From a virus: a DNA stretch of 64,000 bases. The position numbers and the translations under genes are program-made. Under the pieces are notes generated by a model. It saw only the letters and a list, made by a program, of their open reading frames with translations, did no database searches and was not told where the DNA came from. Positions within the stretch are counted from its first letter, which is position 1. Each line of letters opens with the position of its first letter. The stretch is from positions 80,908 through 144,907 of the IMG/VR virus record IMGVR_UViG_3300027708_000026; one strand, written 5' to 3'. Below are positions 2,165-60,383 of this stretch, in pieces.

Positions 2165-4147
2165 GTGTTTCCCGGAATCAATCCTAATGCAGTATCTGGT
2201 AGCAAGCGGCCCGGCGCTCCTTGTAGTCCAATTGTAACCTCTGTAGTATTCACTGCAACTAGTGCCACAGTCACAGTTTCTCCCCCGGATCATAATGGCG
2301 GAGCATATATTAGATCATATGTAGTCGTTAGCAATCCGGGAAATTTAATAGGAGCCGGTTCAAATCCTAATAATATCATAGTTTCAGGCCTGACTCCAAA
2401 TACAAATTATAATTTCACAGCATATGCGGTAAATGAAATTAGTTCAGGGACTGTTTCTATTCCTTCGGGAACAATAAAAACTTTGACTGATATACCGACA
2501 GCCCCAACAGGAATAATTGCTGCTGCCTCCGGCAGTACTAGTGCGACTGTAAGTTATACACAATCTTCTAGAGATAATGGTTTAACTATAACCTCATATA
2601 CTGCGGTCAGCACACCTGGAGGAATTACAGCATCAACCAGCACATCTGTATCAAGCACGATATATGTTACCGGACTAAATGTTACTACCGGATATACATT
2701 TCAAGTGTATGCAACTAACAGCAAAGGCAACAGCCCATATAGTGCCGCAAGCAATTCGATAACAACATTTGCAGTGGTGCCAAATGCACCAACTATCGGT
2801 ACAGCAAGTATTGTAAGTGGTAATCAAATCAGTGTAAGTTATACGCCGCCCGCATACAATGGCGGATCTGCAATCACATCGTATACTGCAATTAGCAACC
2901 CCGGTGGCGTCACAGCATCTGCTGCTTCTGGAAATATTGTGTTCAGTATCAGTAATCTAATCAAGGTAACTACATATACCTTTACGGTGTATGCAACAAA
3001 CGCCATTGGCAACAGTGCAGTCAGTGGGGCTAGTAATTCAGTAACAACCCCTGCAGCAGTGCCAGGAGCACCTACCATCTCATCGGTATCATTGACTGCT
3101 CCCACATCTATCACTGTGGCATATAATGCTCCGGCTGACGATGGTGGGGCAGCAATTACTTCTTATACCGCAATCAGCACACCTGGATCAATCTCGGCAA
3201 CAGCTGCTCGCGCTGGAGGGGGTACGATTGTGGTCACCGGACTGTCCTATAATACCAGCTATTATTTTAGGGTATATGCTACTAATAGTATTGGGGCAGG
3301 CGCAAACAGTTCAACATCAAGTTATGTAGCCACATGGGGAAGTGCAATATATGCTACGTCAGGTAAGAGTGATCTACCTAATACATACAGCTGGGTTGCT
3401 CCCCAGGGCGTTGCTTCAGTGAGCGTAGTTGCTGTGGGCGCAGGTGGTGGCGGCAGGCTGCGAATTGATGGAAATAGTTGGTTCTGCAATGTTGATCTTG
3501 TCTCGGGCAAAGGGCCAGCAACGGGTACCAGTTTAGGAAGTTCCCGTTATCAGGATAACGGCGGCACCTATGTTGGTGACGGCGGCGGCCGTGGCGGAGT
3601 CGGTGGCTCTTATACAATTAATGCCAATCTCTTCCACGAGGGAGCAGGTGGTGGCGCAGGCGGATATACTGCTGCTGGCGGAGCTGGTGCAAATGGGCGC
3701 AGCGGCTGCATCGGCGGCACTGGCTCTGACGCTGTCAGCGGAGGTGGCGGAGGTGGTGGAGGTGCAAATAACTATCCATCAGGCCGGAGAGATGGTGGCG
3801 GCGGCGTTGGATTATATGGACTGGGTCTCACCGGCGCCGCCGGCGGCAAGGGTGGTAGTGGCGGGGGAGATACATATGGTACTTGTCTACAGGGATGCGG
3901 TGGTAATTACGGAGGCGGTGGTGGAGCATCTTTTGGCAAATTCGGCTGCGGCGCCGGTGGGGGTGGTGGACTAGGTTGGAAAAATAATATTACAGTGACA
4001 CCGGGACAAACATACACAGTCCAAGTCGGCGCTCGGGGCGCGGACGGACGGTGCAGGGGCGGAGCCGGTGCAGTACGCATAGTGTGGCCTGCTTCGAGTT
4101 CTGGCGGAAATCGCGAATTCCCGTCAACCAACGTGTCAGCTCCATAA
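2165..4147 (+). CDS. FN3-repeat adhesin with glycine-rich C-terminal domain
   Basis: 660 residues. Four fibronectin type III repeats (about residues 17-105, 110-200, 205-298 and 300-393) are followed by a glycine-rich domain (about 397-660) that opens with TYSWVAPQGVASVSVVAVG and closes with GAVRIVWPASS and REFPST. The same glycine-rich unit occurs eight more times in the giant minus-strand adhesins at 46.5-60.4 kb. Glycine-rich tips of this type resemble the polyglycine-helix receptor-binding domain of T-even-type gp38 adhesins, so host recognition is the likely role (inference). The start is GTG at 2165, one base after the preceding stop, with an AGGGTGG ribosome site 5' of it. Confidence 0.8.
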   Translation: MFPGINPNAVSGSKRPGAPCSPIVTSVVFTATSATVTVSPPDHNGGAYIRSYVVVSNPGNLIGAGSNPNNIIVSGLTPNTNYNFTAYAVNEISSGTVSIPSGTIKTLTDIPTAPTGIIAAASGSTSATVSYTQSSRDNGLTITSYTAVSTPGGITASTSTSVSSTIYVTGLNVTTGYTFQVYATNSKGNSPYSAASNSITTFAVVPNAPTIGTASIVSGNQISVSYTPPAYNGGSAITSYTAISNPGGVTASAASGNIVFSISNLIKVTTYTFTVYATNAIGNSAVSGASNSVTTPAAVPGAPTISSVSLTAPTSITVAYNAPADDGGAAITSYTAISTPGSISATAARAGGGTIVVTGLSYNTSYYFRVYATNSIGAGANSSTSSYVATWGSAIYATSGKSDLPNTYSWVAPQGVASVSVVAVGAGGGGRLRIDGNSWFCNVDLVSGKGPATGTSLGSSRYQDNGGTYVGDGGGRGGVGGSYTINANLFHEGAGGGAGGYTAAGGAGANGRSGCIGGTGSDAVSGGGGGGGGANNYPSGRRDGGGGVGLYGLGLTGAAGGKGGSGGGDTYGTCLQGCGGNYGGGGGASFGKFGCGAGGGGGLGWKNNITVTPGQTYTVQVGARGADGRCRGGAGAVRIVWPASSSGGNREFPSTNVSAP

Positions 4148-19100: not shown

Positions 19101-19248
19101 AAGAATTGATAGAAGCGAGTTATACGTGGATATTGCTATTGAGCCAGTTAAGGCAGTGGAATTCATTTACATTCCATTGCGCATACTTAACACAGGCGCA
19201 ATAGCATCTGGTAATTTGGGAGCAGGTTTCCCAGGTTCAACTAATTAA
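16186..19248 (+). CDS. 18: Tail sheath protein gp18
   Basis: 1020 residues, much longer than T4 gp18 (659). The N-terminal MANLSSPGIQVKVIDESFYT and the C-terminal third (FNLIACPGYPEAIANMVN, FYPSGFTNDN, PPSHMMLSTMINSD, FAPAGIRRGGI, NPLSTMVGVGTINMGQYTR, RINVSRLVAYLRRQL) are characteristic of myovirus sheaths. The added length is a large middle insertion (about residues 130-640) rich in Ser, Thr and Gly, expected on the outer face of the sheath and with WRYNGAG/YWIVPSQ patterns found in phage surface proteins. The sheath contracts around the tube to drive DNA injection. Very strong ribosome site and late promoter fit its high copy number. Confidence 0.93.
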   Translation: MANLSSPGIQVKVIDESFYTPAAPGSTPLIFIASAENKSNASATGTAQGTLKANAGSVYVITSQRDLTNTFGSPTFQADNSGNPIHGDERNEYGLQAAYSLLGISSRAYVTRADVDLAQLVPTSVIPTGTPEAGAYWIVPSQSKFGINVWSTATSQFTLATPLIINDDNMDTAMNALATAPADAFGQQGDYAVVVTKYNGWDSTPNAVYYKTTAGTNSWVAVEGGFDGGKQVKMSAHTDYPDFTASGTSAKTGSVWIKTTSPGNGANWTVKFYNGGTKSWTTKLAPIYNSTVQALYSYDSAGGGANIATGTLFVESDPDHYGITTATNAAAEFRVWRYNGAGSTSITGAASNTISSSTASTFYIRETVKGSNAWGTTKLVTVAADPLNPIAAGVPAALSAAGLTNVTGSFDAVTKELTIKHKTGGDFELAAGTGPGTFTALGFSAHTYDPATEMSSGITNLYTAPKADYSGRAFDFIASSWMPLDYHSTGTTPSTTPADGRLWFDSDIKSVDIMYHDGSKWVGYRNQFPAADPNGPIISATAPPKIGGQSDGTDLVTGDIWISTENADNYGQDIYVWDGVTNEWVKQDPTDNHSPNGWVFADARWSGAGDDIVPDSTKKLLTYNYVDPDAPDPALYPRGTRLWNTRRSGNNVKQYHRSYIDKMATNPRMGDASMSGYFADRWVSVHNRKEDGSGNFGRYSQRAQIIAAFKSLIDTNSAIRDTETLRFNLIACPGYPEAIANMVNFNTDIGQTAFVIGDTPFRLSPTGTALSAWSNNSNNALDNGDIGTVTADSYLALFYPSGFTNDNTGKNIVVPPSHMMLSTMINSDSLSYEWFAPAGIRRGGIINATSVGYINDMGEFQKVSLYQGLRDVCSQVKLNPLSTMVGVGTINMGQYTRSAGASALDRINVSRLVAYLRRQLNVLAKPYLFEPNDTATRNEIRGAVESLLLELVGQRALNDFVVVCDTSNNTPARIDRSELYVDIAIEPVKAVEFIYIPLRILNTGAIASGNLGAGFPGSTN

Positions 19249-22900: not shown

Positions 22901-23248
22901 GGGACAACTAATATTTACGGATTAACCATTGAGAAACAGGAAACTTTCGATGACATCGGTCGAAGAATATATACTGCAACAGCCACAGGTGTTGCTGTAC
23001 CGATACCGACAGATTTAGTGACTACTGTTAGGGTTACCTATAAGAATCAGTTTGGTGATATTGTTACTGATAATAGATACTACTCCGGAAGCACTTATCT
23101 CAGCCAATCACAAGCCGCTGCTGCAACACTGGCAGAATTTAAATCCATTAAAAATACAAAAGTTTTAGGCCTAGCCGTGGGTACAAGAAATAATAATACT
23201 AGCAGTACTAATACCAATGGAAAACGCTATACTGCCAACAAGAGCTAA
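19964..23248 (+). CDS. Giant tail protein: tube-like N-terminal domain plus long coiled coil
   Basis: 1094 residues. The first 270 (FNHLYFVAFNINDG, VGLLVKSTSLPKFKITSEQL, NQYNRKTQVQTKLTYEPVT, MEFHDDNSEITNGLWKNYYR, SIDIFVLHQQKFTQITLINP, KITSWDHDDVGQS) look like a tail-tube or gp54-like domain. From about residue 395 to 800 the protein is Ala-, Gln- and Glu-rich and strongly helical (QQERELAQRTNAELDALTEQ and similar). The last 150 residues resemble a small globular domain with TATATGVAVPIPTDLVTTVR. A fused tube-like and helical protein could act at the tube-baseplate junction or as a length ruler, but this is inference. It follows gp19 behind its own leaderless late promoter. Confidence 0.7.
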   Translation: MNQAFNDFLSSVGGGLSGDGGPNMKNYQHASKLYVEGGYARAPKFNHLYFVAFNINDGVVRDRSWLQNGYNTVGLLVKSTSLPKFKITSEQLNQYNRKTQVQTKLTYEPVTMEFHDDNSEITNGLWKNYYRYYYTDSIYGGKDDTVAPTPSQVSLGKKLFGGLLSPGRKRIKARENNIFPDAYTDNKYKKHNYPYGLDNFQTVPFFKSIDIFVLHQQKFTQITLINPKITSWDHDDVGQSDSTKLMRSKMSLVYENVLYNDGRIGKGSKSGVFAEAFYDTSPSPLSIAGKGSKSLFGPGGLIGGVEDVFGENGSLAQGDYLAAALQAATLIKNAGQITEQQLSAEGYSMLGAAVGIAVSSRNGEIAQNLENYFSNGIGVYTNQYSKNNLEDIPTTPNALTPDQYRKFILDQEAAAYAQEVADTRARQAQQERELAQRTNAELDALTEQKNAIGTQISNNLKVAEKALNTINEWNEKIVDPTDTNLLYSSPVYIAARALGDSESVALGKAKADAVTANEGAIAIIESANRQKESVYAINKLLVANQESLTQQAQLIKDYGPDYAAKISRDSLDYIQKYGAVVAQENTLDTSALPNPFLDHEIATKTYLAALNSGRISSVSQAAADLQTSENLVKVERQAAVSQAIGKITENYGNLTLDKAQTNVEIAVLLAEQSRIDGERTELTDRYRAWQVDQTLGNIVEDAKYVGLKNIEDIEKLVIEKALFQKAASNLFTEKKLLQAEYADKVGAYPDTASAREFFLGLAKKYDPTNPDAGLITKQDFIDKYSGASYIDPESGNTYKWTEDQAVLKYYAAGEKAPALYEKAIASFDIAISKVNNTIVLNSFELSNIKGQIGDAYVTLLKSKSATGDEYTNLTTSIENKIIDLGKTQEKITASELLSQRMVIVNTELASAQAVVVKELAYNKNPDKPYVVMVDTRSAEQIQSDSKPAATSESKSFMAKTTISMEVSVQQAILTLQQQLGTTNIYGLTIEKQETFDDIGRRIYTATATGVAVPIPTDLVTTVRVTYKNQFGDIVTDNRYYSGSTYLSQSQAAAATLAEFKSIKNTKVLGLAVGTRNNNTSSTNTNGKRYTANKS

Positions 23249-46005: not shown

Positions 46006-46479
46006 TTAAATTATTAGATCACCGTCTTCATCTACTCGGGGCATCATAGGCCAAGCTACATTAAACGGATCACTAGTATCTAAAGAGTTTAACAAATTTG
46101 AATAAGTTTGCCAAGCATTTTGGACATCTCCGGTAGTATTTTCAATGCGATCAGTTGCAAATAATTTTAATGATTCTAACTGTTCAGCTACTGATTTTTT
46201 CCGTGCTTTTGTAGTAACTCGCTTCTCATCATCATCCATTTCCCTAACGGTCCAGGTATCTTCATATACTCCATCACTGGCTAGTTCATAAGTGCATATA
46301 GGCACTTGAAAATTGCCCACTGGCATGACATCCGGGCCAGGCTGCTGGTGTCTTCGAAATCGTGCGAGGTTGGCGGGTAGATTATTCAAATCTATCCCGG
46401 GCCAGGCTTGTAGTACATTATCCTCCAAAAGTGGATGTTGCCAGGGTTGTCCATCTTGCATTTGTATATATAAGTTCAT
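46006..46479 (-). CDS. Probable fibre-associated or fibre-assembly protein
   Basis: 157 residues. It begins MNLYIQMQDGQPWQHPLLED, continues with a YELASDGVYEDTWTVREMDD segment and ends in a helical part (AEQLESLKLFATDRIENTTG) with VNSLD-like turns. The opening (...DGQP..HP....N) and (GVY.D.W.VR.M...E) are shared by proteins encoded near fibre genes in aquatic T4-like phages. A helper or linker for the giant adhesins upstream is suggested by proximity. TTAAAGGAGATC gives a strong ribosome site. Confidence 0.6.
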   Translation of the reverse strand: MNLYIQMQDGQPWQHPLLEDNVLQAWPGIDLNNLPANLARFRRHQQPGPDVMPVGNFQVPICTYELASDGVYEDTWTVREMDDDEKRVTTKARKKSVAEQLESLKLFATDRIENTTGDVQNAWQTYSNLLNSLDTSDPFNVAWPMMPRVDEDGDLII

Positions 46480-46554: not shown

Positions 46555-49500
46555 TTAGAGGTTGCTCGAAGGCCCTGTTAGTGTGCTTGGGAAAGTTCGT
46601 ATATTGCCCGGCCAGATGATTCGAACAGCGCCGCCGCCGGCTTGCGCAATCGTGGCCCCGCCGCCGCCTACTATGACTGCATAAGAAGTACCCGGGGATA
46701 CATTATAATTATTCAGGTATCCTAAGCCTCCACCGCCGCCACCAGAACTGGCTCGAGGCCCGTTGGAGCCGCTGCCCCCGCCATAAGCGCCACCCAATCT
46801 GTCGCTGTCCGATGCAGTGGCACCACCTGATCCGCCGCCGCCACCACTGCCAGTACCAGAATAGCTAGAAGTTCCGCCAGCACCGGAACTGCCCTGACCG
46901 TAAACACCAACGCCGCCGCCACCGCCGTGATTGAGCGTATATTTAAAGCCACCACCACCACCAGCTCCACCAGTTCCAGCTGCACCATCAGCAGCATATA
47001 CACCAGAACTATTTGATCCAGTACCACCAGCACCACCGGCGCCGCTATATCCACCAGCGCCACCACCACCACCAGAGCCAGCGCTATTGTTGCCACTACC
47101 ACCGGCACCACCATATCCGCCACCGGTACCTGCATAGTCGCCACCAGCCCCACCGGCGTAACAATATACATATCCAGTACCTCTTCCACCGCCACCACCT
47201 CTAACAAGACTGGAGTTAATAAAGTAACTTTGGGAGCCGCCGGCACCCTGCGTACATCCGGCTGCATCGCCTCCGCCACCACCAACTGCTACTACACTGA
47301 CTGATGTGACATTTGCTGGTGCGATCCAAGAGAATGTGCCAGGAGTAGTATACAAATTCTCCCCGCTAGCAACTAGGGTTGTAACCTGTGTAGTTATACT
47401 GGCAGTACTAATACCGTAGACACTATTAGCATAAACAGATACTGTATATGTAGTTCGGGGAGTTAATCCCAATATTAGTATAATTCCAACCGATGCGGTA
47501 GTTGCACTGATACTAGTGGTGCCAGTCGTTGCCACTGCTGTGTAACTGGTTATAGGAGTAATATAATAAGACGATGGAGGTGCTGTAAAGTTTACAGTAA
47601 TACCCGTGCCGCTAGAAGCCACTGCTGAACTTAGTATAGGTGCTCCTGGTACATATGTGTTACTTATTGTTAATGCGTCAGTATCGTAACCCTGGGCCAC
47701 ATTGGTACTTGGGAATGACCTAACCTGACCGGGCCATACAACACGAACTGCGCCCTTACCACCCGCTGTATTAGTATTGGCACCACCGGCACCTACAACT
47801 ACTGTATAAGAATCTCCTGCTGTGACTGATACGTTGTTTACATAGGCCAACGCGCCGCCGCCACCGCCTGGCATAGATCCGCCACTTATAAAGGATGCAC
47901 CGCCACCTCCCCCAAAGAATCCGCCAAATCCGCCTACATTTGAAACAAATCCATTACCATATCCCCCTATGGTGCCGTTACTTCCGCCAGTACCTGGTCC
48001 GGCAGATGCAACGCCACCAGTGCCGTTACCGCATTTCCCAAACAGTCCGACACCCCCGCCACCCCCGCCTACACCAGGCTGGCCGCGTCCACCACCACCA
48101 CCACCGCCAGTGGAAGCAGCTCCGTCATTACCTGCGCCACCACCACCTGCGCCGCCAGCAGCAGTATATCCACCTGCGCCACCGCCACCGCCACTCTGGC
48201 CGGAACAACCTGCGCCACCGCCACCGCCACCAGAAAACCCCGTACCAGCAATGACTGATCCGCCAGTTTGTCCAGAACCGCCGCCGGCTGATACGTGTAC
48301 AGTATTTGGCAATGCTGCCATCGTAAAACTACTGGCCCCGCCGTTGTTATTATTCCCATCTAATCCGCGCCCTGAACTTCCACCGCCAACGCTTATTACA
48401 CTGACTGCGGTAACATTTGCAGGTACAACCAAAGTATATGTTCCGGGAATCGTATATGCTATACTTGAGCTGGCCACATATGTAGTAGTCGATATACTGT
48501 TGCTGGATGTGCTATTGCCATATACACTAGTAGCATAAACAGATACCGTGTAATTAGTGAGTGGAGTTAATCCCGATATCAATACAGTTCCAGATGATGC
48601 GGTAGTTGTAGTGATACTAGTAGTTCCAGCGGTTGCTACTGCTGTATAACTGGTTATAGGGGTGATATAATAAGGTGATCCTGCTGAGAAATTAATCAAG
48701 ATCGATGTACCATTGGATGCCACTGCTGAATTTAATGTAGGCGGCCTTGGCACATATGTGCTACTTACTGTTAATGCGTCAGTATCGTAACCCTGGGCCA
48801 CATTGGTACTTGGGAATGATCTAAATTGTCCAGGCCATACTATGCGAACTCCTCCGTTACCGCCAGCATGGTCAGGGACTGTGCCGCCAACACCGACAAC
48901 CACTGTATAGGATGCCCCGGGTGTGACTGATATATTATTTGCATAAGCAAGACCGCCACCACCGCCAGCGGCTGCATTATTACCGGGTACATATGACCCG
49001 CCACCGCCACCGCCAAATAATCCACCAAAACCTCCGGTGCCGCTACCAGTGAGATTAAAGTTAGCATATCCGCCAGTAACTCCACAACTTCCGCCTGTAC
49101 CTGGACTTGGTGGCGTGGGCGAATAGACACCGCCCGCGCCGTTACCGCATTTTCCAAAAAGTCCGACACCTCCGCCGCCGCCGCCACCAGAATTTGCACT
49201 AGTAAGGCCACCGCCACCTCCACCACCGCCACCGCCGGTAGAAGCAGCTCCATTAGCACCATGTGCGCCGCCAGTGCCGCCAGCTGCTGTATATCCACCT
49301 GCACCGCCACCACCGCCTTGTTGGGCCGACGACGCCGCTGCCCCGCCAGCGCCGCCAGCAAATCCTGTACCTGCAATGACTGACCCCCCCGTTACTCCAG
49401 AACCACCACTAGCTGATACATGTACTGTATTTGGCAATGCCACCATTGTGAAACTGCTGGCCCCGCCGAGAGCAGTATTATTGCACCTAGACGTGCCCGA

Positions 49501-52065
49501 TGCGCCACCGCCTACTGCTACAACACTAACTGAGGTAACATTTGTGGGCACTACCCAACTATATGTTCCGGGAATTACATATGCTGCGCTGCCGCTGGCT
49601 ACAGCAGTGGTAGTTGATAGACTACTGCTGGATGTGCTATTGCCATATAAATTTGTAGCGTATACAGAGAATGAATAAGAGGTAACCGGAGTTAGTCCCC
49701 TTACGAGGATACTGCCTGACCCAGATGTAGAAGTCGTGCTACGGTAATTTCCATCCGAAGATATTGCAGTATAGCTAGTTATTACATCACCGCCGACATA
49801 AGTAGGTGCTGTATAGGTAATAGCGATCGCAGTGCCACTAGTAGCGGAAATTCCAGTTATCGTAGGTGCATTTGGAACAAATTGACTGCTAGTTGAGTTT
49901 GCGTAACAAACAACTGCTGTCGAAGGGAAAGATCTTATTTGTCCGGGCCATACTATACGTACCCCGCCGTTACCACCGGTACCGCCAACATAAACACCAG
50001 AGGAATCACCTGCGCCGCCCGCACCTACGACTACTGTATAACTTTGGGCCGCATTAACTGTATAGTTATTAACATATGCTAGGCCGCCGCCTGCCCCGCC
50101 TGCACCACTATTGTTTGATCCACTGACAGCACCTCCCCCGCCTCCTCCAAAAACACCACCATACCCTTTTGTTCCTACTTGTCTCCCAGGTGTTCCTCCA
50201 GACCCGCCACCGCCACTTGGATCACACACTGCACCGGTGCTACCGGTAACTCCGTTTGAGCCTAGACCAAACAGTCCAACTCCGCCACCGCCACCTTTTT
50301 CTCCAACAGCATTAATGGCACCGCCAGCACCAGAACCGCCGCAGCCTGCGGCACGGCCAGCACCGCCACCTGTACCAGTATAGCCGCCAGCACCGCCACC
50401 CCGAGCGCTGGCGTCTGCGCCGCCAGTGCCACCTGCAAATGCCACGGCGGTATTGCCTGTTCCTGATCTACCAGTACCACCGGTACCGCCTGTATAATTT
50501 GAAGTTCCTGGAAGACCGCCATATGCACGGACAACACATGTGGCTGCAAAATAACTCGAGCCGCCTGCGACGCCTGCATAACAACTTCCATTGACACTAT
50601 TGCCAAAAGTGCCACCTCCACCACCACCTACAGTGACTACACTGACTGAGGTAACTCCGGCAGGTGTAACCCAACTGTAAGTCCCGGGGAATTTATATAT
50701 ATTCGAACCCGGAGATGCATAGGTTGTGATAACAGACGATGTACTACTAACATCACCATCGCCTACGAGATTTGTTCCATATGCCTGGAATGTATAAGAA
50801 GTTAACGGACTTAAATTTGATGCAGTTACTGAGACATATACATCAAACGGTTGAACAGTACTAGTAGTCGCACCGCTAACTGTGACGCTACGTGCATAGT
50901 AACTGTTGTCTACTATGCTAGTGGCATTTTGTAAAGTTAACATAGTCACTGTGGTTGCCGAGATGATAGCACTGATGTTAGTGCTGTTAGTTTGTGTAGT
51001 TGACAACGGTGCAGTTGGTGGAGTAAAAGCGCCTGTATAAACTGCTAGATATCTAGCAATGCGTAGATTGCTTATATAACCATTGAACCAAGTCGTATTA
51101 TATCCAGGGTTTTCAGTACCGATGTACAAATATTGTTCGTACATGTCATTCGAATATGTTCCGGATACGGCACTGGTGCCATTTACATATAATGTAACTG
51201 TTGATCCGACGCGGACAGCAGCCACGTGATACCAAGCATTAGCAGCATATGTATTAGCAGATACCATGACCCCAGGCGAACTTTGCCCTGATGATGAGTA
51301 AAAAAATTCAAACTTACTGGCCACAGCTCTACCATAAGAAATCTTCATGCCGTGATCGCCACCGAGATTTTGTGTCCAGTTGCCCAGCATCGATCCGTTG
51401 GTGGTGGCAAGAGGATACACCCACATTTCAATGGTAAAATCTGTAGTGCCAACTAGGGGATTTGGGGTGGTTGAGAATGAAAGATAGGAGCTGCTGCCAT
51501 TGAAATATCCAGAGTAACTGGTAGTGGGCAGCGTGGTAGTGGTGCCTGCTAGTGCGCCATTGGCTAATACTGAATACGAGTATGCTGGAATGACACTGGT
51601 ACCGGGTAGAAACCTGACCAAAGCCGACGGCGTCGATGTGACATTAGTCGAAGTTATTATGGCCGATATCGATGTTGGTGCTGTAGGTACCGCATAACTG
51701 GATAACATGATAGGGGACGAGTATGTACCATAGACAACATTGCTGGCAGTACTGAGTAAACTGTTACCGGCAAAGTTGGTGGCATACATGTTGAACACAT
51801 AATATGTACTCGAGCTCAATCCTGGGATGACGACGGTGTTAGTGCTTACAGATACTGTGGCGGTAAATCCTGCAGGATTGCTGACTGCTGTATAAGTTAA
51901 TATAGGACCGCTGCCCGAATAATTTGGCGCAGTAAATTTCAAACTAACTGTGTTAGTGGCCGTAGTAGTCCACGTTGCAGTTAATGCCGTAGGAGCATCG
52001 GGCACATAGTTGGCCGTGAACCGCACAAATCCTGTTATTTTGACGCCGCCTTGAATTATTGTCAT
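46555..52065 (-). CDS. Giant adhesin: FN3, LamG and four glycine-rich modules
   Basis: 1836 residues. Order: an FN3 (about 24-112), a second FN3 interrupted by a LamG-like domain (about bases 51520-50860; FTIEMWVYPLATTN, WYHVAAVRVGSTVTLYVNGT, NGYISNLRIARYLAVYTG), then four units of FN3 plus glycine-rich domain. Each glycine-rich domain opens with PGTYSWV.P..VTSVSVV.VG and closes with VRIVWPG..RSFPST. A perfect 50-base direct repeat at 47669-47718 and 48770-48819 shows a recent 1.1-kb duplication. The likely role is receptor binding (inference by analogy to polyglycine adhesins). Its late promoter is six bases from the ATG, so the transcript would be leaderless. Confidence 0.8.
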   Translation of the reverse strand: MTIIQGGVKITGFVRFTANYVPDAPTALTATWTTTATNTVSLKFTAPNYSGSGPILTYTAVSNPAGFTATVSVSTNTVVIPGLSSSTYYVFNMYATNFAGNSLLSTASNVVYGTYSSPIMLSSYAVPTAPTSISAIITSTNVTSTPSALVRFLPGTSVIPAYSYSVLANGALAGTTTTLPTTSYSGYFNGSSSYLSFSTTPNPLVGTTDFTIEMWVYPLATTNGSMLGNWTQNLGGDHGMKISYGRAVASKFEFFYSSSGQSSPGVMVSANTYAANAWYHVAAVRVGSTVTLYVNGTSAVSGTYSNDMYEQYLYIGTENPGYNTTWFNGYISNLRIARYLAVYTGAFTPPTAPLSTTQTNSTNISAIISATTVTMLTLQNATSIVDNSYYARSVTVSGATTSTVQPFDVYVSVTASNLSPLTSYTFQAYGTNLVGDGDVSSTSSVITTYASPGSNIYKFPGTYSWVTPAGVTSVSVVTVGGGGGGTFGNSVNGSCYAGVAGGSSYFAATCVVRAYGGLPGTSNYTGGTGGTGRSGTGNTAVAFAGGTGGADASARGGGAGGYTGTGGGAGRAAGCGGSGAGGAINAVGEKGGGGGVGLFGLGSNGVTGSTGAVCDPSGGGGSGGTPGRQVGTKGYGGVFGGGGGGAVSGSNNSGAGGAGGGLAYVNNYTVNAAQSYTVVVGAGGAGDSSGVYVGGTGGNGGVRIVWPGQIRSFPSTAVVCYANSTSSQFVPNAPTITGISATSGTAIAITYTAPTYVGGDVITSYTAISSDGNYRSTTSTSGSGSILVRGLTPVTSYSFSVYATNLYGNSTSSSSLSTTTAVASGSAAYVIPGTYSWVVPTNVTSVSVVAVGGGASGTSRCNNTALGGASSFTMVALPNTVHVSASGGSGVTGGSVIAGTGFAGGAGGAAASSAQQGGGGGAGGYTAAGGTGGAHGANGAASTGGGGGGGGGGLTSANSGGGGGGGVGLFGKCGNGAGGVYSPTPPSPGTGGSCGVTGGYANFNLTGSGTGGFGGLFGGGGGGSYVPGNNAAAGGGGGLAYANNISVTPGASYTVVVGVGGTVPDHAGGNGGVRIVWPGQFRSFPSTNVAQGYDTDALTVSSTYVPRPPTLNSAVASNGTSILINFSAGSPYYITPITSYTAVATAGTTSITTTTASSGTVLISGLTPLTNYTVSVYATSVYGNSTSSNSISTTTYVASSSIAYTIPGTYTLVVPANVTAVSVISVGGGSSGRGLDGNNNNGGASSFTMAALPNTVHVSAGGGSGQTGGSVIAGTGFSGGGGGGAGCSGQSGGGGGAGGYTAAGGAGGGGAGNDGAASTGGGGGGGRGQPGVGGGGGGVGLFGKCGNGTGGVASAGPGTGGSNGTIGGYGNGFVSNVGGFGGFFGGGGGASFISGGSMPGGGGGALAYVNNVSVTAGDSYTVVVGAGGANTNTAGGKGAVRVVWPGQVRSFPSTNVAQGYDTDALTISNTYVPGAPILSSAVASSGTGITVNFTAPPSSYYITPITSYTAVATTGTTSISATTASVGIILILGLTPRTTYTVSVYANSVYGISTASITTQVTTLVASGENLYTTPGTFSWIAPANVTSVSVVAVGGGGGDAAGCTQGAGGSQSYFINSSLVRGGGGGRGTGYVYCYAGGAGGDYAGTGGGYGGAGGSGNNSAGSGGGGGAGGYSGAGGAGGTGSNSSGVYAADGAAGTGGAGGGGGFKYTLNHGGGGGVGVYGQGSSGAGGTSSYSGTGSGGGGGSGGATASDSDRLGGAYGGGSGSNGPRASSGGGGGGLGYLNNYNVSPGTSYAVIVGGGGATIAQAGGGAVRIIWPGNIRTFPSTLTGPSSNL
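47669..48819 (-). repeat. 1.1-kb tandem duplication of an FN3 plus glycine-rich unit
   Basis: Bases 47669-47718 and 48770-48819 are identical over 50 positions, 1101 apart (a multiple of three, so in frame). The flanking units are similar along their length (TYVP..P.L.SAVAS.GT, YYITPITSYTAVAT, SFPSTNVAQGYDTDALT). Confidence 0.85.
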
Positions 52066-52071
52066 TTGCTT

Positions 52072-52077
52072 TATTTA
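52072..52077 (-). promoter_or_regulatory. Late promoter for the 1836-residue adhesin, leaderless spacing
   Basis: Reverse-strand TAAATA in TAATAAATAAAG, six bases before the ATG at 52065. Confidence 0.65.
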
Positions 52078-52099
52078 TTAGTTGATAAATCTCTAATTT

Positions 52100-55087
52100 C
52101 TAATTGAATAGTATTGTCCCTGACGCAGTGAATATGTAGTTTCTATAGCCACCTTCTACAACATAAGTAGCGGTATTTACAACTGCCGGATTAAATGAAG
52201 TTGGATAACGGAGGATCGCTATGCCAGATCCGCCAGCAGTACCGACCGATGAACCGCCTGCACTACCGCCCCCTCCGCCGCCCCCTCCGCCAGAATACTG
52301 TTTCGCCGCAGTTCCAAGATCAGTTGTAAATGCTCCATTGCCGCCTCCGCCAAATCCACCTATACCGGTGGCGGTGCCGCCACCACCTGCACCGCCACCT
52401 GCAAAATAAACTGCATTAGTGGCAGTAATGTATTGTCCCACACCTAATGTTAACGCCAGTGTTGTAGAAATTATAGTAGTAAATGTTCCAGTACCTCCAT
52501 TGCCTGGAACACCGGAATTGTGATTAGCACCAACGCCGCCAGCGCCACCACCGCCTCCACCAGATGAGCTAGTGTTGTTAGTGTAGCTAGAACCTGCACC
52601 GCCAGCAAATCCAACTCCGTAACCGTATGTGGCGAATTGCGTGCTAGTTCCGCCGACAGTATTATTGGAAGCGCCACCACCACCAGAACCGCCTGGAAGA
52701 CCGTTAAAGCTAGGAGACCAGCCTCCACCTCCGCCGCCGCCCACTGCTGCTCTCGTAACGGCACCTCCGATAAACGATGAAGTAGAACCAGCGTTCCCAG
52801 CTATAGTCGATGCCGATGCCGCAGCACCAGCACCAATTATAACTGAGTATAACACACCAGAAGATATAGTCTGACTACTGACGTAGACGAGACCGCCAGC
52901 GCCACCACCGCCTCCTCTTCCATGAGTGCTCGTTCCACCTCCACCTCCACCACCTCCGCCCACCAACAGAATTTCTATGGGAGGCATTGTGTTAAAAATT
53001 GTACTAGTAGATCCTACACTATCACCTAAAATACTAGTTGAATATATAGTCGCTGTGCTAGGCACTGATATACCAGGGAAAGTTAATATAGCACTACCCA
53101 AAGTGGTGTAAGCTGATGCTGAAATTCCGCCTGCTTGGCCAGTGAACAGGTAAGACTTAATTCCAGTTTGTGTAAATGCATCTTGAACATATGCGATCCC
53201 AGTCCATGTGTTATTTGAAAAATATGCTGTTGATGATGTAACTACTGGATAAGGGAAATTTGTATAGGCAGTAGTCGTTGTCAATGCTGAACAGGCTGCA
53301 ACCAATGTGCTGGGAAACTGTCTATCACTAGCTGGCCACACGATACGAACTGCACCGCCTCCACCTATTGAATTTGCACTACCACTTGGTGTGGGTGCCG
53401 CCCCTACGATAACTGTATATGATAGATTATATACCACTGTGACAGTGTTGGCATATACTAATGAACCACCGGCACCACCACCGCCTGCGCTGCCACCCCC
53501 ACCACCGCCGTATACTCCCCCGCCACCATATGTTCCCGCGGAGACTGTGCTAGTGCCCGCAGAGCCGCAAGATCCACTGCCTCCACCAATGCCAGAACTT
53601 CCACTGGTAGTGCCACCGGCACCACTGGCACCTAGACCAAAGATTCCTGTGCCACCCCCACCTGCTCCCAGACTACCGGTATACCCACCGCCACCGCCGC
53701 CGCCACCGAAGCCGTTAGTACCAGAGCTACATCTACCACCAATGCCGCTGCCAGGATATGTGCCCAATGTAGTAGTTACCGAACCGACATTAGTGATGGC
53801 TAGACTTCCACCATTGTCTACTATGGTAGCATTTTGCAGAGTTAGAAACGCAGTGGTAGCTGATGATGCAATAGCAGAGATATTAGTACTGGAAGATTGT
53901 GTAGTTGCTAACGGTAACACTGGCGGAACAAAGTTACCTGTATATACAGCTTGTCTAACCACACGAAGATTGGACATAGACCCTACTAATTTATAAGGAT
54001 CAAATGTTTGTCCTATATTCATAAGAGTTCTAGTGAAGTTTGTGGCATCGGCAAATTGCAATCTATTGATACCATTGATGTATATATTTAGGTTGCCAGC
54101 AGTTCTAACTACTGCCACATGATGCCACACACCAATGACCATGCTGGCATTGCTAGAAATAGTGCTACTGACGCTGCCGATCCTAACGATAAAGGTACCA
54201 GCGTTAAAGTAAACTCCAAAGCCAGCAGTATCACTTCCAGTAGTCCTAATATCAAACATGCCGGGGAATGAATTAGTGGTAAACGATCCAGGATTTACCC
54301 ACCATTCCACAGTAAAATCAGCGGTGCCTAAAGCAGATGGCAATGTTGCTTGTAATGCTTGACTACCACTTAGACTTGCGTAGTATAAAGAATTACCAAC
54401 ATAGCCGCCCGCACCGCCACCGCCGCCACCTGCGCTACTTGCGCAATTGGCTGCAACCCCGCCAGCATTACCACCATATACGACCACTGAGTTAGCTTGC
54501 CCTGTTCCGCCCTGACTATATCCTGGGAAATTAACAGTACCTGCACTATATCCGCTCCTGCCGCCCAGCGCCGAAGCTACACTGCCACTGACAAATGTAC
54601 TAGTTCCGCCAAAGCTGTTGTCTACTACCGTACCAGCACTGGATTTTCCTGACCCCCCTGCTCCAATGGCCACCACGCTGACTGATGTTACATTAGGATT
54701 GGCATTGATCCAGCTGTAGGTTCCTGGCACCGTATACGCTTGACTACCATAAGTATATGGCAATACAATAGGTGTCAATGTCTCTGTGCCCGGGCCAACT
54801 TCTGAATTAGCATATACTGAAAATCTATAGAAAGTTCCTGAACTCAATCCGCTGACTGTTATCGTTCCTGTACCGCTAGTGTTGAGTGAACCGGTGATGA
54901 GACCTGGATAGCTAACAGCTGTCACTGAAGTAACTGTGAAACTACCTCGATTAGTTGGACCTGTAAATAAGATAGTGGCTGTATTTAGAGTGGTCATCGT
55001 TGCTGATGTTATGACAACTGGACCCGGTGCCGACAATGAAGTCATAATAATACCACCAGAAAAATTGACACCGCCACTAATTATCAT
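52100..55087 (-). CDS. Giant adhesin: FN3, interrupted glycine-rich domain with LamG insert, second glycine-rich type
   Basis: 995 residues from the ATG at 55087 (MIISGGVNFSGGIIM) with CAGGAGCG as ribosome site; the frame is open upstream into the previous gene but that start is not used. Order: FN3, a glycine-rich domain opening SINANPNVTSVSVVAIG-like, a LamG domain (about bases 54400-53760; FTVEWWVNPGSFTT, WHHVAVVRTAGNLNIYINGI, LVGSMSNLRVVRQAVYTG) placed inside it, the rest of the glycine-rich domain closing with VRIVWPASDRQFPST, and a C-terminal second-type glycine-rich domain (EILLVGGGGG, ILRYPTSFNPA, GGYRNYIFTASGTILF). Coupled to the gene upstream by a one-base gap. Confidence 0.78.
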   Translation of the reverse strand: MIISGGVNFSGGIIMTSLSAPGPVVITSATMTTLNTATILFTGPTNRGSFTVTSVTAVSYPGLITGSLNTSGTGTITVSGLSSGTFYRFSVYANSEVGPGTETLTPIVLPYTYGSQAYTVPGTYSWINANPNVTSVSVVAIGAGGSGKSSAGTVVDNSFGGTSTFVSGSVASALGGRSGYSAGTVNFPGYSQGGTGQANSVVVYGGNAGGVAANCASSAGGGGGGAGGYVGNSLYYASLSGSQALQATLPSALGTADFTVEWWVNPGSFTTNSFPGMFDIRTTGSDTAGFGVYFNAGTFIVRIGSVSSTISSNASMVIGVWHHVAVVRTAGNLNIYINGINRLQFADATNFTRTLMNIGQTFDPYKLVGSMSNLRVVRQAVYTGNFVPPVLPLATTQSSSTNISAIASSATTAFLTLQNATIVDNGGSLAITNVGSVTTTLGTYPGSGIGGRCSSGTNGFGGGGGGGGYTGSLGAGGGGTGIFGLGASGAGGTTSGSSGIGGGSGSCGSAGTSTVSAGTYGGGGVYGGGGGGSAGGGGAGGSLVYANTVTVVYNLSYTVIVGAAPTPSGSANSIGGGGAVRIVWPASDRQFPSTLVAACSALTTTTAYTNFPYPVVTSSTAYFSNNTWTGIAYVQDAFTQTGIKSYLFTGQAGGISASAYTTLGSAILTFPGISVPSTATIYSTSILGDSVGSTSTIFNTMPPIEILLVGGGGGGGGGTSTHGRGGGGGAGGLVYVSSQTISSGVLYSVIIGAGAAASASTIAGNAGSTSSFIGGAVTRAAVGGGGGGGWSPSFNGLPGGSGGGGASNNTVGGTSTQFATYGYGVGFAGGAGSSYTNNTSSSGGGGGGAGGVGANHNSGVPGNGGTGTFTTIISTTLALTLGVGQYITATNAVYFAGGGAGGGGTATGIGGFGGGGNGAFTTDLGTAAKQYSGGGGGGGGGSAGGSSVGTAGGSGIAILRYPTSFNPAVVNTATYVVEGGYRNYIFTASGTILFN

Positions 55088-55088
55088 A

Positions 55089-58000
55089 TTAAAACGCTCC
55101 TGAAACGTTAGTACTAGGGAATGATCTAGTTGCACCGGACCAAACAATTCGAACCGCGCCAACCCCGCCCGGTGATTGTGGACAGTTTCCAGTTGCCCCG
55201 CCGGCGCCAACGATTACGGTATAGCTAGCGCCCGGAGTAACTGATACATTATTAGCATACGCCAGTGCTCCTGCTCCACCGCCCGCCATCGCACCACCAC
55301 CAATAACTGAGGCTCCTGTACCGCCACCATATGTGCCACCTTTACCACCAGTTCCACTAGTTTGTGCGCCACCTGCACTACCGCCAGATCCACCACCACC
55401 ACCACCTGTGCCGTTACAGCCCAGTCCATATAATCCAACGCCGCCGCCGCCCATACCTGTACCATTGCCGCCGCCGCCGCCGCCGCCAGTTGATGCAGCA
55501 CCAGCAGCGCCGCCGCCAAAGCCGCCAACTCCGCCAGCAGCGGTATATCCGCCTGCTCCGCCACCACCACCTTGTTGGCAACCATTGCCGCCGCCACCTG
55601 CACCGCCAGCAAATCCAGTACCAACACCAACGGTTCCGCCAGCGCCTCCAGTAGCACCATAACTACCGCCAGCACCGCCACCTGCAGATACATAGGTCGT
55701 GCTTGGCGATGTTAATGCGAAGCTACTGGCGCCACCGGATACTTGAGCAGCACACTTCATACGACCAGTTCCACCACCACCAACAGCTACTACACTGACT
55801 GATGTAACTCCCAATGGTGCGACCCAAGAGAAGGTGCCAGTGTTTATATATAGAGCATTGCCCCAAGGTGTACCAGTGCTTACTGCGCTGCCCGGGCCTT
55901 GACCTGCGGCATTGGAAGCATACGCTACAAAACTATAGGCAACGCCTGAAGTCAATCCTGATACAGTTACTACATTGCCTGATACAGTGGTTCCTGAGAA
56001 GCTGCCGGGACTTGCAATCACAGTATATCCGGTTATAGACAACCCACCGGTATTGACAGGGGCTGTTACAGCAACACTTACTGTAGAACTGCTGGTGCCA
56101 GTTATGGCAGCTATCGTAGGACTACCTGGAACGCCATTTGTAGTGATCGACAAGGTGTTAGTTGATGTCGTAGTTCCTGCTAGATTAGTAGCATATCCCG
56201 TGACAGTATACGTGGTATTATTAGTCAATCCACTGATGTATACGGTGCCTGTCAGCAGCCCATTAACTACTGATACAGTACCACTGGAGTTTCCAGGTGT
56301 AGTCACTGCTGTAAATTGATACGTGGGCAGTATTGCCGATGTTGATCCAGTATTGGAAACAGACACCGCTATCGTACCTAAACTGAAATTAGTCACTGTA
56401 GTCACAGTGACAAAAGCAGGCGGACTATATCCACTGGCTAGTTTAGGAGTAGTACATGCAACTGTGACATTGGTACTGGGGAAACTCCTCGTTGTTCCAG
56501 GCCAAACAATTCGAACTGCTCCACTGCCACCTAAACCACCAGAGCAACTGCTGCCCTTTGTGCCCCTAGCACCCACTACCACAGCATAGCAGGAATTAGG
56601 AGTCACTGCGATGTTATTACCATAAGCTAATGCACCGCCACTACCACCGCCGTGTCCGCAACCGCCGTTTGCACCGGCGCCGCCGCCGCCACCATATGCA
56701 CCACCAGCACCGCCTACACCAGAAACTGTGCTGGTTCCGCCAGCTACCCCACAGGAGCCACCACCACCGCCTACCGCGTTGCCTGCTGCCCAAGTGCCGC
56801 CAGCGCCGTTAGAACCTTGTCCAAATAGTCCAACTCCGCCGCCGCCGCCAGAATATTGACCTGATGCGCCGCCACCTCCGCCAGCTCCACCAGTGCCAGC
56901 ACTACCTGTACTGGCGTTCCACGCACCACCGCCACCACCATTGCCCGAATAGCCGCCAGCACCGCCGCCTGCGCCACCGTTGGCTCCGTTACAGGCAATG
57001 CCGCCCGCCCCGCCGGTGCCACCACCGGTTCTAGCTGTTCCTGAGCCAGTCCCACCTCCTATATACCCACCGGCATTGGAACCACGAAATCCGCCGCCAC
57101 CACCCGAAGCCTGGAGTGTACCAGACGCTGCAAAATAACTTGCGCCGCCTTGGCCGCCCGATGCGCCGCCTCCACCTCCGCCGCCTACAGCTACCACGCT
57201 GACGCTGCTGACTGTGGCAGGTGCTTTCCAAGTATAGCTACCCGGTGTAGTATAACTGGCTTCAGTGACTGCCTGGGAACCAAATGGGAATGTCACAGTG
57301 CTGGCAGTACTGATAGTACCGGTGCCAAGTGAATTAGTGGCATAGACTTGGAATGTATAGTAAGTGCTACTGTCCACAGTCATGACAATGGGACTTGCAG
57401 ATGCAGATTGTGTCTGCCCAAATGGTGTTGCAATCACCGTATAGGACGTTATAGGTGTGAATCCTGGATATATAGGAGTAGTCCATGCCACTGAAATAGT
57501 TCCTGTACTGGTAGCAGAGGTTATCACAGCAGTGGGTGCAGATGGGACTGCACTGATGCTGGTACCGCAATTACCCACATTGGTACTGGGGAAACTTCTT
57601 GCTGCGCCGGGCCATACGATACGAACTATTCCCCCACCTCCTATCGATGTTGTTAATGAACCAAAAGTGATGGTGCCGGAACCAACCGTCGTCCAGATAT
57701 ATGTCCTATATCCGCCCGAAACTGTAATAGTTGGATTACCTGTAGTGCTTGTTGCTGGTAGATAGATATCTGGATAACGGATGACTACTATACCTGAACC
57801 GCCATTACCACCTAATACGGTGCCGCTGGATTGAGAACTTCCTCCACCACCGCCACCAGTGTTTGGTGTTGCATTTCCTCCATTGGTATTAGTAACTAAT
57901 GCGCCATTGCCGCCGCCCCCTGTGCCTCCCAACCCACCTGTTGCGCCCGTCCTACCACCGGCACCACCACCACCTGCGTAGTATGTTGCTGTTCCAGTGA

Positions 58001-60383
58001 TGCTAGATTGTATTCCAATACCGCCTGCGCCCGCAACAGAACCAGAACCGGCGGCGCCAACGGCTCCTGCTCCACCACCACCGCCACCCGGAAACGGAGT
58101 GCTATTGACACCAGCCCCGCCGTTATTGCCTTGACTGGGGCTAGTGCTTGGTGTGTTACCCGCACCACCACCGCCGGTGCTTAAATAATTTCCGCCTCCA
58201 CCAGAGCCTCCCGAGCCGGCGGTGCCGGCAGAAGAGGCACCACCACCGCCACCACCACCAGTTGCAGTTATTGATGCAAACACAGAATCGAGACCGTTTG
58301 CACCTGTTCCTGACCCACCCGTAGCGCCTGCGCCGACTGTGACTGTGTATGCCACTCCGGTAGATACTGCATAACTGGATGAAGAAAGATAACCACCGGC
58401 ACCACCGCCACCTTGACCGCCACCGTTTGTTGTTCCACCACCGGCACCACCACCGCCAACCACTAGATATTCTACGGTAGGTGGTGGCAACATAACACCG
58501 CCAGCGCCCACAGTGACCGCATAACAGTTGCCCGCAATCACTGGATAGTTGTTGATATAGGCCAATCCGCCACCGCCACCACTTGCACCAGCAGCAGCCC
58601 CGCCACCGCCAGGATATCCGCCATTGGAACCGCAGCCACATGCGCCACCGCTGCCGCCGTAGCCATAATAATGTCCACCTGGAGAATTTGCACCCGGCGC
58701 ACCGTTCGTGCCCTGTCCAAATATTCCCGTACCACCACCACCGCCATAATTAGTACCGTCGAAAGTTCCGCCGCCCCCGCCGCCAGATATTGATGTAGTG
58801 GTGGATGTGTTTAGGACCAGCGAGAAATTTATTGTCCCCGATGCTGTGAATATATATGTCCTAAATCCACCTGACGCAACATATGTAGCACTGGTTATTG
58901 CCGCCGCAAATGTATCTGGATAACGCACGATCACTACCCCGGAACCACCGTTACCGCCAATGTTGTAACCACCGCCAGTAGTGGACCTACCAGCACCACC
59001 GCCGCCACCTGTGTATGGTGTGCCGGAAAAACCAGTGGCATTTGCACTATTACCCGCTGCGCCACCTCCGTAGCCACCCAAGGACTGCGCACAGTTGGAT
59101 ACGCCAGAACCGCCACCACCAAAATAAACACTGTTTGTGGCAGTGATATACTGACCAACTGCCAATGTTATGGCCAATGAAGTACTTATGATAGTGGTTG
59201 CAGTGCCAACACCACCAGCACCGCCGGGCGACGATGCACCATTAGCACCAACGCCTCCAGCACCGCCACCACCAGCACCTGCATATCCAGGCGCTGTATT
59301 AAGTCCGCTGCCGCCCGCAAATCCAAAACATGCACCCGTTTTGGCGCCGGGGCTGCTGCCATTATTGGCTGCACCGCCGCCGCTGCCGCCGCTGCCCCCG
59401 GCTCGGACAGTGGTTGCAACTCCAGTCCAACCACCACCATAGCCGCCGCCCAGGGCAGTCAATCCAAATGCCACAGAATCTTGACCGTTTGATCCACCTG
59501 TGGCATTGCCCGAGCCGCCTTGGCCAACAGTGATACCATAAACTGTAGCACTCACTGCCGCAGATCCTAGGCGCACACCACCGGCACCGCCACCGCCAGC
59601 GTTGTCAGTACAGGCTTTGCTGGTGCCGCCAGATCCGCCGCCAGCCACTATGAGATATTCAACTGTGGTGGGGAGACTAGATGCACCCACCATGGGATAG
59701 CCGCTGCCACCCACAGTGCCGTAGCCACCAGCACCGCCAGCACCTGACAGTGTATTGCCGCCAGCACCACCAGCGCCTACCACAAATCCTGTATAGCCAG
59801 TGCCCGTGCCGCCCGCACCCCCGCCAGCCACATCGTTGAGGTTGTAACCACCCGCACCCCCAAAAGCAGCCAAAGCACCTGTGTTGATGAATGTACTGGT
59901 ACCACCTGATGGCGCACGAGTTCCCGCAGTTACTGGCATGCCACCACCGCCACCACCTATGGCCAGGACACTGACTGAAGTGACTCCTGTGGGAGCCCGC
60001 CAGGTATAACTGCCCGGCGAGGTGTATGTGGTGCTGCTGTTGGCCACCAGTGTGGTGACGGCCACACTGGTACTGGCCGCGCTGGTGCCTGCATCAGTGA
60101 TGGCTGCTATGGAGATGTTATAGCCAGTGAATGTGCTCAGTCCCACTACTGTGATGCCAGTGGCTGTGATGGATGATATCACACCACCCACAGGCGATGT
60201 TGACACCGTGTAGCCCGTGATGGGCAAGCCACTGGTAGCGGTATTGGCAGTGTAGGTGACCAGCACAGTGGTCTGCCCAGTGGCCACAATGCTGTTGATA
60301 GTGGGCGCACCGGGAGGATAGATGTTGTTGGTAACTACAGTGGCGCCACTGAACACAACTCCACCTGTCATTACAATTCCCAT
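55089..60383 (-). CDS. Giant adhesin with nested glycine-rich modules
   Basis: 1764 residues. Order: FN3, a first-type glycine-rich domain interrupted by two second-type modules (VEYLIVAGGGSGG to GGFRTYIFTASGTINF, about bases 59665-58825, and VEYLVVGGGGAGG to GTITFGS, about 58484-57655), then its closing VRIVWPGAARSFPST, an FN3, a second complete first-type domain, two FN3 (LTNNTTYTVTGYATNLAGTT, GVPGSPTIAAITGTSSSTVS), and a third first-type domain ending SFPSTNVSGAF. Runs of six or more glycines are common. Probably a tail-tip receptor-binding protein with the two adhesins downstream. A perfect TATAAATA late promoter and a leader with ACAGGGAA lie upstream. Confidence 0.78.
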   Translation of the reverse strand: MGIVMTGGVVFSGATVVTNNIYPPGAPTINSIVATGQTTVLVTYTANTATSGLPITGYTVSTSPVGGVISSITATGITVVGLSTFTGYNISIAAITDAGTSAASTSVAVTTLVANSSTTYTSPGSYTWRAPTGVTSVSVLAIGGGGGGMPVTAGTRAPSGGTSTFINTGALAAFGGAGGYNLNDVAGGGAGGTGTGYTGFVVGAGGAGGNTLSGAGGAGGYGTVGGSGYPMVGASSLPTTVEYLIVAGGGSGGTSKACTDNAGGGGAGGVRLGSAAVSATVYGITVGQGGSGNATGGSNGQDSVAFGLTALGGGYGGGWTGVATTVRAGGSGGSGGGAANNGSSPGAKTGACFGFAGGSGLNTAPGYAGAGGGGAGGVGANGASSPGGAGGVGTATTIISTSLAITLAVGQYITATNSVYFGGGGSGVSNCAQSLGGYGGGAAGNSANATGFSGTPYTGGGGGAGRSTTGGGYNIGGNGGSGVVIVRYPDTFAAAITSATYVASGGFRTYIFTASGTINFSLVLNTSTTTSISGGGGGGTFDGTNYGGGGGTGIFGQGTNGAPGANSPGGHYYGYGGSGGACGCGSNGGYPGGGGAAAGASGGGGGLAYINNYPVIAGNCYAVTVGAGGVMLPPPTVEYLVVGGGGAGGGTTNGGGQGGGGAGGYLSSSSYAVSTGVAYTVTVGAGATGGSGTGANGLDSVFASITATGGGGGGGASSAGTAGSGGSGGGGNYLSTGGGGAGNTPSTSPSQGNNGGAGVNSTPFPGGGGGGAGAVGAAGSGSVAGAGGIGIQSSITGTATYYAGGGGAGGRTGATGGLGGTGGGGNGALVTNTNGGNATPNTGGGGGGSSQSSGTVLGGNGGSGIVVIRYPDIYLPATSTTGNPTITVSGGYRTYIWTTVGSGTITFGSLTTSIGGGGIVRIVWPGAARSFPSTNVGNCGTSISAVPSAPTAVITSATSTGTISVAWTTPIYPGFTPITSYTVIATPFGQTQSASASPIVMTVDSSTYYTFQVYATNSLGTGTISTASTVTFPFGSQAVTEASYTTPGSYTWKAPATVSSVSVVAVGGGGGGGASGGQGGASYFAASGTLQASGGGGGFRGSNAGGYIGGGTGSGTARTGGGTGGAGGIACNGANGGAGGGAGGYSGNGGGGGAWNASTGSAGTGGAGGGGGASGQYSGGGGGVGLFGQGSNGAGGTWAAGNAVGGGGGSCGVAGGTSTVSGVGGAGGAYGGGGGAGANGGCGHGGGSGGALAYGNNIAVTPNSCYAVVVGARGTKGSSCSGGLGGSGAVRIVWPGTTRSFPSTNVTVACTTPKLASGYSPPAFVTVTTVTNFSLGTIAVSVSNTGSTSAILPTYQFTAVTTPGNSSGTVSVVNGLLTGTVYISGLTNNTTYTVTGYATNLAGTTTSTNTLSITTNGVPGSPTIAAITGTSSSTVSVAVTAPVNTGGLSITGYTVIASPGSFSGTTVSGNVVTVSGLTSGVAYSFVAYASNAAGQGPGSAVSTGTPWGNALYINTGTFSWVAPLGVTSVSVVAVGGGGTGRMKCAAQVSGGASSFALTSPSTTYVSAGGGAGGSYGATGGAGGTVGVGTGFAGGAGGGGNGCQQGGGGGAGGYTAAGGVGGFGGGAAGAASTGGGGGGGNGTGMGGGGVGLYGLGCNGTGGGGGGSGGSAGGAQTSGTGGKGGTYGGGTGASVIGGGAMAGGGAGALAYANNVSVTPGASYTVIVGAGGATGNCPQSPGGVGAVRIVWSGATRSFPSTNVSGAF

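Follow-up and report, generated by a model that had tools for sequence, protein, structure and literature searches.

Excision of recognised domains and rescoring of the joined flanks confirmed, at the level of sequence profiles, that whole domains occupy loops of other domains in two giant adhesins of an uncultured phage, and are not misread tandem neighbours. The window, the whole 64,000-nucleotide stretch analysed, is part of the 145-kb record of an uncultured virus. The record encodes a phage tail sheath, a terminase, a UvsX-like recombinase, a DnaB-like helicase and tail-fibre proteins and can therefore be assigned to a myovirus; its host is likewise uncultured. Three adhesin genes run on the minus strand from 60383 to 46555. 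Adhesin C (55089..60383, 1764 aa) comprises an FN3 domain, a split type-1 glycine-rich unit with two type-2 guests, FN3, a type-1 unit, two FN3 domains and a last type-1 unit. Adhesin B (52100..55087, 995 aa from the ATG at 55087; the ORF listed at 52100-55210 starts from a TTG and has 1036 aa) comprises FN3, a type-1 unit with a nested LamG and a C-terminal type-2 module. Adhesin A (46555..52065, 1836 aa) comprises FN3, an FN3 with an apparently nested LamG, and an alternation of four type-1 units with FN3. Adhesin A is followed immediately downstream by a tail-fibre-assembly (Tfa/Caudo_TAP-like) gene (46006..46479, minus) and then by a 2OG-Fe(II) oxygenase gene. The Tfa-like product scores 21.8 bits against PF02413, just under the cut-off of 22.1, and matches PHROG tail assembly families with E-values down to 1.1e-5.

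The first-pass annotation had counted nine type-1 units, and this number held: four in adhesin A, one in B, three in C and one in the protein encoded at 2165-4147. When the full 145-kb record was searched independently with a profile of aligned intact units, seven whole and exactly two split units were returned. The intact units, located by profile match, are A1 to A4 (49900..50703, 48787..49587, 47686..48462 and 46558..47358), C2 (56454..57248) and C3 (55092..55856), all on the minus strand, together with the ninth unit, which is C-terminal in the 660-aa protein (3356..4144, plus strand). With their guests excised, the split units are 253 and 270 aa long, compared with 255-268 aa for the seven intact ones, and align with them end to end. 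Scored against a leave-one-out profile, trained on the other units without the split ones, the joined units reach 154 bits (C) and 150 bits (B), and intact units 148-225 bits.

Excision and the leave-one-out profile bear out the earlier proposal that two type-2 modules lie within a single type-1 unit of the 1764-aa protein. The split unit of adhesin C spans aa 116-940, and its parts follow one another along the minus strand. The opening part (59667..60038; aa 116-239; model positions 2-114, 62 bits) leads into guest 1, a type-2 glycine-rich module with the core VEYL...GTINF that belongs to Pfam PF21722 (58788..59666; aa 240-532). A middle part (58479..58787; aa 533-635; model 125-235, 48 bits) is followed by guest 2, again a type-2 module (57642..58478; aa 636-914), and by the closing part, VRIVWPGAARSFPST (57564..57641; aa 915-940; model 243-267, 34 bits). 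Since the host's own middle part lies between the guests, they occupy two different loops rather than one.

A LamG had likewise been placed within the type-1 unit of the 995-aa protein, and here excision, the leave-one-out profile and a gap in a MAFFT alignment agree. The opening part of this unit, B1 (54401..54745, minus; model 2-104), is followed by the LamG (Laminin_G_3; 53750..54400, minus; aa 271-487 in the 1036-aa numbering), which begins directly after GGAGGY, and then by the closing part (53285..53749, minus; model 110-267). The LamG scores 57.8 bits against PF13385, its host gains 80 bits on excision, and one long gap opens at the LamG when split B1 is aligned with 21 intact units. 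The type-2 module of adhesin B, identified by Pfam and profile match, occupies an ordinary C-terminal position (52103..52981, minus). An AlphaFold model of the split unit with its LamG was poor (overall pLDDT 57.6, LamG below 40); its alignment was built without the LamG rows because these were misaligned onto Gly regions. Foldseek searches with this low-confidence model gave chance matches only, and these were discarded. The nesting is not an assembly error, since the same arrangement is present at 99.9-100% DNA identity in IMGVR_UViG_3300009182_000052 and 3300010158_000269, two contigs assembled from other metagenomes.

The evidence also supports a LamG inside an FN3 of the 1836-aa protein, as first annotated, less strongly than in the type-1 cases owing to the low score of the left FN3 half (8.7 bits). 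This half (VPTAPTSISA...; 51523..51690, minus) is matched as well by 15 of 2000 shuffled sequences; the right half (50716..50847, minus) scores 31 bits. The LamG between them (50848..51522, minus) was delimited by its domain match and by joining the FN3 halves, which together reach 37.0 bits against a mean of 24.2 with the left half shuffled (none of 1000 shuffles as good).

The generality of nesting was assessed at about 160 loci by removing each recognised domain, joining its flanks and scoring the host domain across the junction against either side. Among the 18,153 test sequences covered, and with a strong nest defined as a gain of at least 35 bits, eight strong nests were found: three in adhesins B and C and five elsewhere. 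The latter are two LamGs in locus L141, one LamG each in L012 and L079, and one glycine-rich unit in L015. Type-2-like units host the strong nests of L141 (both), L012 and L015, with the junction at model positions 56-71 / 70-75; the nest in L079 lies at a site other than the type-2 beta-turn. Nests in the reverse sense also occur. A type-2 unit lies within a LamG in L012:5271-11570 (aa 949-1243, between GTALYP and GNFTPP; gain 22 bits), and L062:4123-6441 encodes a head-closure Hc3 (phrog_578) protein split by a type-1 unit (aa 421-692), with flanking parts that match profile positions 2-401 and 399-473. No nested domain was detected by this test in five isolate-phage loci. LamG-in-LamG matches (gains of 12-17 bits) and one FN3-in-glycine match in L014 are probably tandem-repeat artefacts and were not counted. 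By eye, a LamG in L021:2592-4115 apparently separates the last core strand of a type-2-like unit from its terminal strand pair, and L021:76-1314 holds an unsplit sibling of that unit; the excision test did not flag this case.

Intact units are present in L014 and L141. L014, another contig from one of the same metagenomes, carries an FN3 array with at least six intact type-1 units, none of them split. The host sequence of split unit C1 has its nearest relative in L012 (55%), and that of B1 is nearest to intact C2 of the same genome (55%). With tblastn against isolate phages, neither whole adhesin C nor one type-1 unit gave a match, and for adhesin B only its LamG matched, in cyanophage and other virion proteins. 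A scan of genome contigs detected no type-1 unit and thus offers no clue to the host.

The type-2 module was modelled by AlphaFold with good confidence for guest 2 of adhesin C (pLDDT 93.4, pTM 0.92, from an alignment of 31 sequences) as short strands with long unstranded Gly segments. In this model, four of the outside nests map to a turn flanked by strands 65-67 and 70-72, with profile and residue numbering possibly differing by a few positions. The recurrent turn is a concrete permissive site that can be tested. In a Foldseek comparison, the 272-aa model and the viral protein A0A6J5L2W1, named Concanavalin A-like lectin, align across 495 columns (TMq 0.83), a span to be expected from a nested guest. 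The first strand of type-2 modules is VEYLVV, and their last strand pair (GGYRTYIFT.SGTI.F) resembles the first strand of type-1 units; by this comparison of sequences the modules look like a possible circular permutation. They also look like good guests, because that likeness would place both of their ends at one turn.

The order of segments within glycine-rich units varies too. In most other viral units the segments matching the type-1 model are arranged differently (2-35, about 191-245, 40-210, 239-265): the hairpin GGALAY.NN..VTPG.SYTVVVGAGG comes after the first strand pair (order A-B-C-D). In the window and in L006, L007, L009, L012, L014, L039 and L062 the same hairpin follows the glycine lobe (A-C-B-D). 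Relatives with A-B-C-D order include L044, L046 and L061, as well as L053, and segments of the L044 unit are recognisably equivalent to those of A2. Of 49 delimited units, about 20 are A-C-B-D, about 29 are A-B-C-D and none has both, counts that include a by-eye reading of rows left undecided or misplaced by the pattern. A tree of the units without hairpin B lacked resolution and gives no count of A-C-B-D origins. Guest 2 of adhesin C lies between the hairpin and the last strand, which is the place of the glycine lobe in other units.

The domains were compared with known families and systems. The whole type-2-bearing proteins score 108.5 and 68.6 bits against PF21722 (Gly_rich_2; cut-off 24.3), and LamG matches to PF13385 (Laminin_G_3) reach 68.8 bits besides that of the adhesin B guest (cut-off 27.6). 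FN3 matches to PF00041 (cut-off 25) reach 79 bits in adhesin A, 71.3 in adhesin C and 107.3 in the 660-aa protein, and only 19.4 in adhesin B. Type-1 units stay below the PF21722 cut-off (A2 16.3 bits, C2 no match, adhesin A 19.4), plausibly because of the change in segment order. In BFVD, phage proteins labelled 'glycine-rich domain-containing' are matched by the type-2 model with E-values down to 1.8e-27. Unlike the PF21722 / PHROG 2295 proteins as known, two of the three type-2 modules in the window are guests inside another unit, and the modules end with a strand pair that resembles the opening strand of other units. Type-1 units match PHROG 4474 (226.6 bits for adhesin A), a family of unknown function, from which the window differs in that guests split two of its nine units.

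A search of PDB sequences with the type-1 profile gave no match. The nearest solved structures by Foldseek were the Bxb1 tail-tip (9d93, E 4.5e-4) and the Pam3 fibre (7ypx, E 0.096; E 0.004 by profile). According to the available sections of reports on Pam3 and Salmonella phage S16 (PMC9608196, PMC6851490), the glycine-rich domain extends out of beta-strands and is proposed to contact receptors through variable distal ends, and the Pam3 fibre has a Tfa-type chaperone. Pam3 gp24, S16 gp38 and the Bxb1 tail-tip proteins are tail proteins with a beta-core and extended glycine-rich loops, an organisation that the adhesins may share. The same sections describe short variable segments at the loop tips of gp24 and gp38, and not whole-domain insertion, whereas the units in the window also form arrays with FN3. 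Mosaic phage tail proteins (PMC10684548) are likewise host-contact proteins diversified by domain exchange, but that study deals with domain combinations and the word 'nested' is absent from it. In the open-access literature searched, no description of nested glycine-rich phage domains was found. Our analyses indicate that the three proteins are most likely tail-fibre proteins related to polyglycine adhesins that would bind receptors.

Three other accounts of the arrangement were weighed. That the domains are ordinary tandem neighbours with misread boundaries, repetitive glycine-rich stretches being pairable as halves of any unit, draws on the general rule among relatives: of 432 LamG domains counted across 86 loci, most are in tandem and only a handful pass the nesting test, and glycine-rich composition can inflate matches. 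This account is nevertheless very improbable and contradicted by the data, since the parts of each split unit cover complementary and ordered stretches of the leave-one-out model and sum to an ordinary unit length, positives among the test sequences were few, and L079 and L141 show nesting in other phages. Another possibility is that the guests grew from within as duplicates of neighbouring units of the same genome. A third type-2 unit and further LamGs do occur there, and B1 has its nearest relative in the same genome. Against this, the two adhesin LamGs in the window share only 37% identity and resemble LamGs of other phages about equally well, and for the nested LamGs of L079, L012 and L141 the closest LamGs belong to other contigs, so that we regard such an origin as unlikely.

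The first-pass annotation had further suggested insertion at Gly-codon runs, which would proceed by recombination between short repeats. Several insert edges do abut Gly runs, and exact repeats of at least 21 bp among the four genes cover 386 bases, against 6.5 in a codon-shuffled null, with an enrichment in Gly codons (0.48 against 0.25). One identical 29-bp tract (GGGVGLYGLG) is shared by adhesin C (55420-55448) and the gene for the 660-aa protein (3797-3825), about 50 kb apart. These long repeats, however, do not lie at insert edges; they fit duplication or conversion between units and are silent on the edges themselves. Direct repeats between the left and right edges were unremarkable for three of the four inserts (P 0.26-0.83), and the 12-bp edge repeat of the adhesin B LamG (P about 0.03 before correction) is not significant after correction for four tests. 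The type-2 guests are close to their host gene in GC content and Gly-codon use, leaving no compositional trace, and the commonest site, used by four of the eight strong nests, is a beta-turn (model positions about 68-72) and not a Gly run. The suggestion is thus not borne out, and we consider this mechanism doubtful. The two near-identical contigs carry the same inserts and the next relatives share only about 50-60% protein identity, so the DNA edges have no empty site for comparison. A reverse transcriptase was sought by RVT_1 in the 145-kb record, which may be incomplete, and neither it nor, by this criterion, a diversity-generating retroelement was found. As for the proposal that recombination builds receptor diversity, nesting recurs in other phages, which fits domain-sized recombination, and we infer that recombination placed whole domains in loops; greater receptor diversity would be its presumed consequence.

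We therefore favour, with good though not full confidence, the reading of adhesins A to C as tail-fibre-type receptor-binding proteins, chains of FN3 and glycine-rich units whose cores accept whole domains. It is supported by the units restored on excision, the recurrence of nesting, the beta-turn site, the matches to phage tail structures and the adjoining Tfa-like gene. Each glycine-rich unit would consist of a small beta-core and a large polyglycine lobe that emerges from the turns of the core and may be of polyglycine-II type by analogy with S16 gp38 and Pam3 gp24. The core turns would tolerate whole domains, either the lectin-like LamG or further glycine-rich units, which would then project sideways from the fibre and serve as additional binding heads. 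Such inserts may have originated by domain-sized illegitimate or homologous recombination, with subsequent selection favouring loops with closely spaced ends; a UvsX-like recombinase is among the proteins of this phage.

More broadly, there is perhaps an even chance that environmental phages use the glycine-rich beta-core as a general docking scaffold, in which several turns independently accept LamG or glycine-rich domains, reverse insertions occur, the order of hairpin and lobe has changed and type-2 may be a circular permutation. If so, receptor-binding proteins would evolve by nesting and permutation, beyond tandem shuffling or point change. Insertion of a whole domain into a loop would add a binding head while keeping the old one, and nesting or reordering of units would account for the failure of standard domain libraries to recognise such proteins in one piece or at all.

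Several minor features were noted. A short N-terminal motif of the form M.I..GGV.FSG recurs in all three adhesins (ORF starts at 60383, 55087 and 52065, minus), with the copies MGIVMTGGVVFSG, MIISGGVNFSG and MTIIQGGVKITG read from the sequence, and is perhaps a shared attachment segment. The frame of the LamG-containing ORF at 175-2163 extends upstream past the edge of the window, and 2095 codons are open in the record. In the 1094-aa protein at 19964-23248, which is very large for a tail tube, matches to tail-tube families are confined to a segment close to the N-terminus (aa 40-137), and the tail sheath protein at 16186-19248 is unusually long at 1020 aa.
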